Positions 7,312 through 26,428 of a stretch of DNA of 32,435 bases are shown piece by piece. The stretch lies in contig PNON01000025.1 in the NCBI GenBank assembly GCA_013824865.1, forward strand, positions 1 through 32,435, read 5' to 3'. A program made the position numbers and the translations under genes. Position 1 is the first letter of the stretch. Every line of letters begins with the position of its first letter. The notes beneath the pieces are model-generated. The model had not been told where the DNA came from, did not search any database, and saw only the letters and a program-made list of their open reading frames with translations. This DNA is from Anaerolinea sp. (GTDB lineage Bacteria; Chloroflexota; Anaerolineae; Anaerolineales; Anaerolineaceae).

Positions 7312-8721
7312 ATGAAAAATAAGGCGTCCCTTGCCATTTTCTCCATCATCATCAGCCTGAGTCTGGCGCTCGCGCCAGTTTCTACTGCGTCTGCCATCAG
7401 CACAGGTTTCTCCACCAGCATCACCTACCAGAATATCGGCAGCGATATCGCGCATGTCACCATCCTGTATTACGCGGACGAGAAAACGGAGGCAACTTCC
7501 ATTGTGCAGCCCGACCTGGCTGTTGGCGCCAGTCAGACGGTCTCTCTGACCAACCTTGCCCCTGCCACAATCGGAACCAGGGGTGCAGTTGTAATCAAAT
7601 CAGACATGGAAATCGCTGTTCTTACCACGCAGGTACCCACGACCACCACTATTAAAGGTCGCGGTTTGGCGTCAGCCACTTCTTCCGGCTCTTCTCAAAT
7701 CTGGCTGCCCAATCTACGCAAAGCACCTAATGGAACTCAGGTTCTTTCCATCCAGAACCTGGACAGCGCAGTTGCGGATATCAAACTCACCTTCTACGGA
7801 GGCGCCAGCCCGGTAAGTGTCGAAAAGAAGAATATTCCTGCTGGAGGATCAGCGTATATAGACCTGGCTGAAGTGACCGGACTGACAATTCCGTTTATTG
7901 GCACTGCTCAAGTGGTGACTGCTCAATCCGGATCGACTACTCCCGGCAAGATCAGTGGTATGGCACTGCATTCTTTCGGCACAACCACCGAAGTTTATGC
8001 CACGGAAAGCATTTCAACGGGAGGCAACAAACTCTATATGCCGCTGGCATTATGTTATGGAATGGGAGGGATGAGCACCTCATATTATGTATTCAATACC
8101 GATGCCACCCAATCTGCTATTGTCACAGTGCGTTATAGCAGTGGTAAACTTGAAACTGCTACTCTGCCCGCCCGCGGACAACGTTACTTCAATGCCTGCA
8201 CGCCGACCGGCACTGTGTCAGGCTACTCCGGTTCTGCAGTGATCACCACCAATGGGTCAGCCATTCTTGCGGTCGGCAACATTAAATCAAATGGCATGGC
8301 AGCTACATTCACGGGCCAGGCAGTGGGTGGAAAGAAACTGGCGCTTCCGGTTGCACTGTATTCCACCGCGAATTACGCCAATGGTCAAAAATCGCGTACC
8401 ACCATCAGCGCAATGAACCTGGGAAGTAGTCTGGCAGCTGGTGCTGTAAAAGCCAGGTATTATGGCCGGGATGGCACATTGGTTGGTACCGTAACATTCC
8501 CGGCTTTCGCCTCAGGCAGCCGGATTGATACCAGCGCAGCCCAACTTGGAACTGCTGGAGCTGAGTTTGGATATTACTCAAATGGTGTGAATGGCGGAAG
8601 CGTCATTATTGAAGGGCCATCAGGCAGTTCACTGGTAGCCGTGGCCTGGGTGGTCAATGTAGCTGGTCCTGGGCTATATTCAGGTGAAACCTACAACGCC
8701 ATCATAACAGCCGGACAGTAA
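7312..8721 (+). CDS. Secreted beta-rich repeat protein, function unknown
   Basis: Exported protein of 469 residues with a Sec signal peptide (about 1-28, cleavage near STASA). I recognise no enzymatic motif. It is low in charge and rich in Ser/Thr/Gly/Ala, with about four diverged modules of roughly 100 residues. Each contains an asparagine-led strand (YQNIGSDIAHVTILYY, IQNLDSAVADIKLTFY, VFNTDATQSAIVTVRY, AMNLGSSLAAGAVKARYY), then a stretch describing added strand pairs, then a GSAVI or GAVVI strand. This suggests tandem immunoglobulin-like beta sandwiches on the cell surface or in the medium. There is no sorting motif or C-terminal anchor. A GGAG site lies upstream of the ATG and an intrinsic terminator follows. 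Confidence 0.75.
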   Translation: MKNKASLAIFSIIISLSLALAPVSTASAISTGFSTSITYQNIGSDIAHVTILYYADEKTEATSIVQPDLAVGASQTVSLTNLAPATIGTRGAVVIKSDMEIAVLTTQVPTTTTIKGRGLASATSSGSSQIWLPNLRKAPNGTQVLSIQNLDSAVADIKLTFYGGASPVSVEKKNIPAGGSAYIDLAEVTGLTIPFIGTAQVVTAQSGSTTPGKISGMALHSFGTTTEVYATESISTGGNKLYMPLALCYGMGGMSTSYYVFNTDATQSAIVTVRYSSGKLETATLPARGQRYFNACTPTGTVSGYSGSAVITTNGSAILAVGNIKSNGMAATFTGQAVGGKKLALPVALYSTANYANGQKSRTTISAMNLGSSLAAGAVKARYYGRDGTLVGTVTFPAFASGSRIDTSAAQLGTAGAEFGYYSNGVNGGSVIIEGPSGSSLVAVAWVVNVAGPGLYSGETYNAIITAGQ

Positions 8722-24748: not shown

Positions 24749-24999
24749 ACGTACTCCTGTTTTTGATTTGAGTCATATCCCTGCTGACTTTTATAATGGC
24801 ACTTTATCGATGAAATGATTTACCTTGACCCTGATCATGCGGTCCTCAGTCAGTTTATACCATATTATCTGTAATAATTATCGCAAAGGTCTCATACCTT
24901 CATGTAACCTTTTATATGCATTATCCCATTCCCGCGTGATGACGTAAACTATATGTTATCAAGTACACCTATTTCTTACTCATATAAGGAGGTTCAACT

Positions 25000-25743
25000 A
25001 TGACCCATCTCAAAGTTGGAGACGTGGCTCCGGATTTTACCCTTCTCAGCCACCTGGATACCAATATTACCCTTAGCACATTACGGGGCAAGGTGGTTAC
25101 ATTGGCATTCTTTCCAATGGCCTGGACGCCGGTCTGAACAGCGCAGATCCCGTCGTATGATGCCGAACTCGGCAAATTCGCGGGATTAAATGCCCAGGTT
25201 CTGGGCATCAGCATTGATCATATCCCCTGTTTACAAGCCTGGACAGAGACCTTTGGAGGTATACATTACCCGATTCTAAGTGACTTCTGGCCTCATGGCG
25301 CTGTAGCCAAGCTTTATGGAGTCTTGCGGGTAGAAGGAAAATCTGAACGAGCCATTTTCGTGATCGATGATGAAGGCATCATCCGGTATATCGACATCCA
25401 TGACATAGACGAACAGCCGGAAAACAGGGTGTTATTCGATGAGATCAAAAAGCTCCGCCCGGGATATGTAGACGAAGCGATGATTGAAGACTCATCACCA
25501 TTGCCCCAGGGCGGGATTGTGATGTATTGCACCAGGTGGTGCCCCGAATGCCGGCGGGCACGCGATTGGTTGAACAACCAGGGTCTCCAGTACACTGAGG
25601 TGGATGTCATGTCCAGCCCGGGGGCGGATAAGCAGGTGCGTGCATGGAATAAAGGCAATCTGGTCACGCCCACATTCGATATTGATGGCCATATAATGAC
25701 CGGATTTGATCAGGAAAAGATCAACCAGATTTTGAATAGGTAA
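25000..25743 (+). CDS. Selenocysteine-containing peroxiredoxin-glutaredoxin fusion
   Basis: Read with the TGA at 25135-25137 as selenocysteine, this is a continuous 247-residue protein. The N-terminal peroxiredoxin domain (about 1-160) has VGDVAPDFTLL, then FFPMAWTPVU with Sec46 exactly where the peroxidatic Cys sits (family pattern TPVC), ISIDHIPCLQAW with Cys77 as a possible resolving Cys, and ERAIFVID with the catalytic Arg117. The C-terminal glutaredoxin-like domain (about 172-247) has VMYCTRWCPEC with the CxxC at 181-184 and the cis-Pro LVTPTF. The fused glutaredoxin would recycle the oxidised selenium centre, giving a self-contained peroxidase. TAAGGAGG precedes the ATG at ideal spacing. 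A SECIS-like hairpin follows the TGA. Conventional calling would truncate it to a later start. The 3' end overlaps the convergent glycosylase gene by 23 bp. Confidence 0.88.
25147..25186 (+). promoter_or_regulatory. Candidate bacterial SECIS element
   Basis: Starting 9 nt after the in-frame TGA, a 6-bp lower stem AUCCCG (25147-25152) / CGGGAU (25181-25186) encloses an upper stem UGCCG (25161-25165) / CGGCA (25170-25174) with loop AACU. The apical loop lies about 28 nt past the TGA, in the range expected for SelB-dependent SECIS hairpins. If the terminal G-C pair opens, the loop begins with G, as in many bacterial SECIS. Folding was done by eye. Confidence 0.65.
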
Positions 25744-26428
25744 CAGAACAGTTCTTAGAAAGCAAATCATCCAGTGCAGAGACTGGATGGTTTTGTTTCA
25801 GCACATATCTCCACGGAATACTGCGCCATGGTTCTGGCACGCTGTTTAAACCGATCCGCGCCGTATGTTCGACAGACTCTTCGTGTATTACAAAGCCAGC
25901 ATCAGCGATCCATAACCCAGCAGTGACTCCGCAGAGTGATACCCCGTTCAGTCGGCCATTCACCGAGAATGCCTGGCAGCACTTCGCAGGTCCGTCCGTC
26001 CAACCCCGCGAGAGGCAGCCTTCCTGGTTGGAACGCGGTGGTGGGCGAAGTATCCGCATCACATCCAACCCAGCGAGCGGCTCAACTGCGCGAATAAGCA
26101 CCGCGGCCGGTGAGCCGACTTCACCTGTCACTACGTTAAGCAACCAGTGCATACCATAGGTGAAATAAACATAAGCATGCCCGGGAGGGCCGTACATAAT
26201 GCTGGTGCGTGGAGTCCAACCAGCTTTCGCATGGCATCCGAGGTCATCTTCCCCCTGGTAAGCTTCTGTCTCGACGATCACCCCGACCAGGGTGGAACCC
26301 TGATATTCCCGTACCAGCAGTTTGCCCAATAGATGCCTGGCTACCTCGGTCGCGGGTTTCAGGTATTCGCTTTGTGGAATAAAGGAATGGATCTGTGCCT
26401 GGAGATCCAGGTCTGAGTTAAATTTCAT
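25721..26428 (-). CDS. DNA-3-methyladenine glycosylase (AAG/MPG family)
   Basis: Base-excision repair glycosylase of 235 residues, removing alkylated purines from DNA. The AAG family hallmarks are present: LLGKLLVREYQG, VETEAYQGEDD with the catalytic Glu, RTSIMYGPPGHAYVYFTYGMHWLLNVV, and GPAKCCQAF. The family is compact and lacks a helix-hairpin-helix. Its 3' end overlaps the convergent peroxiredoxin gene by 23 bp; its start overlaps the end of the upstream epimerase gene by 11 bp, so the two are likely translationally coupled though functionally unrelated. Confidence 0.93.
   Translation of the reverse strand: MKFNSDLDLQAQIHSFIPQSEYLKPATEVARHLLGKLLVREYQGSTLVGVIVETEAYQGEDDLGCHAKAGWTPRTSIMYGPPGHAYVYFTYGMHWLLNVVTGEVGSPAAVLIRAVEPLAGLDVMRILRPPPRSNQEGCLSRGWTDGPAKCCQAFSVNGRLNGVSLCGVTAGLWIADAGFVIHEESVEHTARIGLNSVPEPWRSIPWRYVLKQNHPVSALDDLLSKNCSVTYSKSG

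Follow-up and report, generated by a model that had tools for sequence, protein, structure and literature searches.

A predicted selenocysteine-containing peroxiredoxin-glutaredoxin fusion conserved in Anaerolineae

AhpE (Rv2238c) of Mycobacterium tuberculosis is a cysteine peroxiredoxin (Prx), the sulfenic acid of which is directly reduced by the glutaredoxin (Grx)-type protein mycoredoxin-1 (Mrx1; PMC4360819). The two are separate proteins, and Mrx1 can use mycothiol. Selenocysteine (Sec) is found at the peroxidatic position of the TxxU Sec-Prx group, which comprises PrxU of Eubacterium acidaminophilum and its relatives, lacks a Grx domain and is listed as experimentally verified. The hybrid Prx5-Grx protein of Haemophilus influenzae (PDB 1NM3), which is glutathione-dependent, carries Prx and then Grx in one chain and has Cys. 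Selenoprotein fusions with a Grx-like C-terminal domain are represented by HUGP/GUXX-star (NF045501), which contains two Sec residues, and the UXX-star family. No Prx-Grx fusion is among the 119 families and subfamilies of prokaryotic selenoproteins inventoried in 2026, nor was one found in the passages retrieved from the Global Ocean Sampling study, which reports Prx-PP2C and other selenoprotein fusions.

The DNA analysed here (hereafter, the window) is a stretch of 32,435 nt on contig PNON01000025.1 of Anaerolinea sp. It contains a gene that almost certainly encodes a true selenoprotein, with Sec predicted at residue 46, in which a Prx domain is followed by a Grx domain. Among solved structures, AhpE is the nearest to the Prx half both by sequence and by fold, and the Grx half also matches the mycoredoxin model, but the fusion differs from AhpE in containing Cys77, a position at which AhpE has no Cys in the alignment. 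The H. influenzae hybrid was detected by structure search; it belongs, however, to the Prx5 subfamily and shares 21% identity with the fusion. The fusion scores 59.6 bits on the PrxU model (cut-off, 270), and only its Grx part matches NF045501 (23.6 bits; cut-off, 325), with one Sec instead of two. Because none of the 25 best NCBIfam models reaches its cut-off, standard annotation is likely to cut the protein at the UGA and to lose its catalytic half. Sec-Prx proteins were already known, as the preliminary description had stated, and so were Cys Prx-Grx hybrids; as far as the open literature shows, the combination of Sec with a Prx-Grx fusion appears to be new, although priority is not proven. 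The features of the locus are as follows.

24986-24993, + strand: strong ribosome binding site (AAGGAGGT), read from the sequence
25000-25743, + strand: complete gene for the predicted Sec-Prx/Grx fusion, 247 residues, Sec at residue 46
25015-25392, + strand: Prx domain (AhpC-TSA, AhpE-like), residues 6-131, Pfam AhpC-TSA 125 bits
25135-25137, + strand: TGA codon 46, predicted Sec at the peroxidatic position (PxxxTxxU); TGA in each of the 44 distinct Sec fusions, TGT or TGC in Cys homologues
25146-25187, + strand: bacterial SECIS-like hairpin, apical loop at 25166-25169, 8 unpaired bases after the TGA, minimum free energy (MFE) -20.7 kcal/mol
25228-25230, + strand: Cys77, candidate resolving Cys, shared by 39 of 46 fusions; at the N-terminal end of helix 75-83 of the structural model
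25348-25350, + strand: Arg117, the catalytic Arg of peroxiredoxins, invariant
25453-25509, + strand: linker between the domains, variable in alignment length and sequence; model block means 79 and 74 (lower confidence)
25516-25737, + strand: Grx domain, YruB/mycoredoxin-like, Pfam Glutaredoxin 41.6 bits over residues 173-230
25528-25551, + strand: C177-x3-C181-x2-C184, each Cys invariant across all 46 fusions

The gene starts with ATG at 25000, which is preceded by a GGAG-type site in most orthologues as well, and ends with TAA at 25741-25743. Its sole in-frame stop is the TGA at codon 46, in the context FFPMAWTPV-U-TAQ. The conservation search covered 61 genomes, namely the host and 60 relatives, and was followed by a scan of named genomes. 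In the 61 genomes, 27 full-length fusions were identified, each containing exactly one TGA in a single alignment column, and the 26 other than the window gene share 52-74% identity with it. Further fusions, mostly from Anaerolineae and including those of Leptolinea sp. HRD-7 and Ornatilinea apprima, were found in the named genomes, bringing the total to 44 distinct Sec fusions, which come from many assemblies, and two Cys fusions. The fusion is thus no isolated case: it forms a family conserved in Anaerolineae, with a Prx half resembling AhpE.

If the TGA were a genuine stop, or arose from a sequencing error, the locus would comprise a fragment of 45 residues followed by a separate Grx-containing gene, or would be a pseudogene. 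TGA is a normal stop in the host genome, and the mechanically predicted ORF begins at TTG 25324, but this reading is scarcely credible given the identical TGA in 44 distinct genes, the purifying selection on either side of it and a hairpin specific to the TGA-containing genes. Comparison with the same-genus orthologue shows purifying selection in all four gene segments: dN/dS is 0.195/1.80 in the part up to the TGA and 0.085/1.35 from there to TTG 25324, in each case far less than 1. Selenium-free decoding of the TGA as Trp or Cys, through an altered code or a near-cognate tRNA, is also highly improbable. Homologues have Cys at this site, so that Cys insertion would also yield a working enzyme; however, they never show Trp there, TGA terminates 10 of the 28 genes in the window, the Trp codon of the host is TGG, the host possesses the full Sec machinery, and the hairpin is confined to TGA genes. 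Conservation of the TGA column, dN/dS and stop usage led to the rejection of a truncated gene, of Trp at this codon and of a sequencing error. The preliminary description had proposed a single frame from the ribosome site to the stop interrupted only by codon 46, a TGA located where the family has Cys, and no need to read it as Trp; all three points agree with the frame at 25000-25743, the alignment of the Cys homologues and the stop usage, and the sequencing error that it had asked to be considered is excluded by the independent orthologues with the same TGA.

The same description had noted a SECIS-like hairpin shortly after the TGA, and folding placed its pairs at 25146-25187. Because this region is coding, the controls were synonymous codon shuffles in which the protein was kept unchanged. 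The window hairpin gave a z-score of -3.3 against 2000 such shuffles, of which 3 were equally stable. In the 27 orthologues, mean z-scores were -2.5 to -2.7 just past the TGA, compared with +0.3 to -0.7 in segments from other parts of the gene. By class, the means were -2.6 in the 44 Sec fusions, -2.7 in nine single-domain Sec-Prx genes and -0.2 in 45 single-domain Cys-Prx genes, a contrast that remains large although its P value of 3e-15 overstates the certainty because related genes are not independent. The strong hairpin has been lost in both Cys fusions (z about -1). Ten of the 16 pairs have changed on both sides, with a covariation score higher than in any of the 500 shuffles or any slid control.

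In the published model of bacterial SECIS elements, the apical loop lies 16-37 nt past the UGA and has 3-9 nt, the upper stem has 4-16 bp, and the MFE is at most -7.5 (PMC13188914). The window hairpin falls within these limits (28 nt, a 4-nt loop, a 5-bp upper stem and -20.7 kcal/mol), and a hairpin loop begins 16-37 nt past the UGA in all 44 Sec fusions. In the MFE fold, 28 of the 44 sequences have the G that the model places in the first two apical-loop positions. The window hairpin as folded has AACU as its apical loop, with a closing G-C pair, and the loop G arises only when that pair is open. A search of the gene region against Rfam gave no SECIS match that reached the gathering score; the three matches below threshold, with E values up to 10, are attributable to chance.

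Other TGA-containing Prx frames were encountered. Two of them (L044, G039:C44:16456-16857; L045, G038:C537:2416-2814) represent a second, unfused Prx family with the TGA in FTDT-U, are 41-43% identical, and have strong hairpins (z of -3.6 and -3.8, respectively); they apparently form a further subfamily of Sec-Prx, characterised by a TDTU motif. A further frame (L097, + strand near base 8190) contains a TGA in FPAAFTPL-U followed by 109 residues with no Grx motif.

The host genome (2.1 Mb in 57 contigs, 86% complete) was searched for selA, selB, selD and tRNA-Sec, as had been suggested, and all four were present above curated cut-offs (SelA, 530 bits; SelB, 342; SelD, 356; tRNA-Sec, 68). Because weak Rfam matches to tRNA-Sec turn up in every control genome (14 of 14), only the 68-bit match was counted. 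The SelD gene of the host (L047, G000:C43:1146-2075) itself contains one in-frame TGA and probably also encodes a selenoprotein. Of the 27 genomes with a Sec fusion, 24 had SelA above the cut-off, two had a partial SelA and one (G002, in 770 contigs) had neither SelA nor a strong tRNA-Sec. For the Cys fusions, no SelA was found in the metagenome-assembled genome (MAG) carrying L055, and Pelolinea has SelA. SelA is also frequent in relatives without the fusion, so its co-occurrence with the fusion is by itself weak evidence. Insertion of Sec at residue 46 by SelB, guided by the hairpin past the UGA, is a strongly supported prediction.

P39, T43 and residue 46 of the PxxxTxxC/U motif (Sec, or Cys in the two Cys fusions) and the catalytic R117 are conserved throughout. 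The Grx half has the C181-x2-C184 dithiol in all 46 fusions, the Grx fold and, at the cis-Pro position, a TP motif (residues 223-224), and it matches TIGR02196 (60 bits) and the TIGR02200 mycoredoxin model (49 bits), both under the cut-off. AlphaFold2 modelled the fusion with a pLDDT of 90 and a pTM of 0.79, and the best structural match of the model was M. tuberculosis AhpE (37-38% identity; TM-score up to 0.93, depending on the target). The protein is a very probable peroxidase as judged from its family: Sec46, in the AhpE-like pocket formed by P39, T43 and R117, would reduce H2O2 or organic peroxides and be converted to a selenenic acid. The AhpE subfamily is of the one-Cys type, with no resolving Cys in the Prx domain. 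In the fusions, Cys77, missing from 7 of the 46, may trap Sec46 as a selenosulfide in most members, and the remainder may react directly.

The reduction of AhpE by the Grx-type Mrx1 provides a mechanistic precedent for the fused Grx as a reductant. The C-terminal dithiol Grx domain (C181/C184) would reduce Sec46 as Mrx1 does AhpE, and we consider it probable that this domain is the reductant of the peroxidase half. In an unlikely alternative, the protein is a true Sec-Prx, the Grx domain serves other substrates, and free thioredoxin (Trx) reduces Sec46. Single-domain Sec-Prx sisters without a fused Grx exist, Trx reductase (TrxR) is nearly universal among the relatives, and Cys77 could give an ordinary Trx-reducible atypical 2-Cys enzyme; against this, the fusion persists across one clade with the three Grx Cys residues invariant, and AhpE, the closest relative of known structure, has a Grx-type reductant. 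Still less probable is a peroxide-driven oxidant relay or sensor, with Sec46 as the peroxide sensor and the Grx domain transferring the oxidation to client proteins instead of contributing to bulk detoxification. The architecture permits electron flow in either direction and no conserved neighbour fixes a pathway, but no regulator or client gene is linked, and AhpE is a peroxidase. A selenium peroxidase with a built-in reductant is the best explanation of the gene, and a likely one.

Glutathione synthetase (gshB) was above the cut-off in none of 31 genomes, host included, and TrxR was above it in 38 of 41, making Trx-type electrons the likelier supply. The Grx domain would accordingly be recharged probably by the TrxR system and probably not by glutathione, and a TrxR/Trx source is slightly favoured; canonical TrxR was not found in the host genome, which is 86% complete, and was present in a same-genus genome. 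The self-regenerating enzyme proposed in the preliminary description would still need its Grx domain to be recharged. The fusion would be likely to protect these largely anaerobic bacteria during exposure to oxygen. A more detailed scheme is offered tentatively: a glutathione-free single-chain relay from a Sec46-Cys77 selenosulfide to the three-Cys Grx site (C177, C181 and C184), recharged by TrxR, in which the fused Grx has made Cys77 dispensable in several lineages and Sec has twice been replaced by Cys with the fusion kept. An unfused pairing was observed in G036, a genome of the same family as the host, where a Grx-like frame (LWCGAT), separate from the Cys-Prx gene before it (L043, G036:C158), overlaps that gene. 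L043 was rejected as a Sec gene, since it encodes a Cys-Prx that genuinely terminates at the TGA.

Maximum-likelihood analysis of the Prx domain gave a tree with a weak root and several weak inner branches, in which the fusions group together (93/84) beside single-domain Sec-Prx proteins of several phyla (L072-L075, L078, L080, L090, L091 and L094), which resemble the fusion in carrying an in-gene hairpin. The two Cys fusions, L055 (TGT) and L118 of Pelolinea submarina (TGC), are nested within the Sec clade; L118 pairs firmly with the Sec form L024 (100/100), and the position of L055 is not firm. The simplest reading would be a single acquisition of Grx by a Sec-Prx and two later changes from Sec to Cys. 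The family adds a conserved selenoprotein architecture in a bacterial class often found in sediments and sludge. With the enzyme and its candidate reductant in a single chain, it offers a clean system for asking why selenium is used at the peroxidatic site. Natural Sec and Cys forms are available in close relatives (L024 and L118), and both forms occur in cultured organisms, the Sec form for instance in Leptolinea sp. HRD-7 (L053). One Sec fusion (L067), from an Acidobacteria MAG, is placed inside the Chloroflexota clade, reflecting either transfer or mis-binning; the Zod_Metabat label of this MAG is shared with several Anaerolineae MAGs.

No gene is conserved within 5 kb of the fusion across 24 loci, the sole cluster consisting of scattered ABC ATPases, and the genomic context therefore gives no hint of a partner; PADLOC returned no matches. 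In the window, a convergent 235-aa frame on the minus strand (25721-26428) extends over the final 23 bases of the fusion gene and presumably encodes a 3-methyladenine DNA glycosylase-like protein, as judged by eye.
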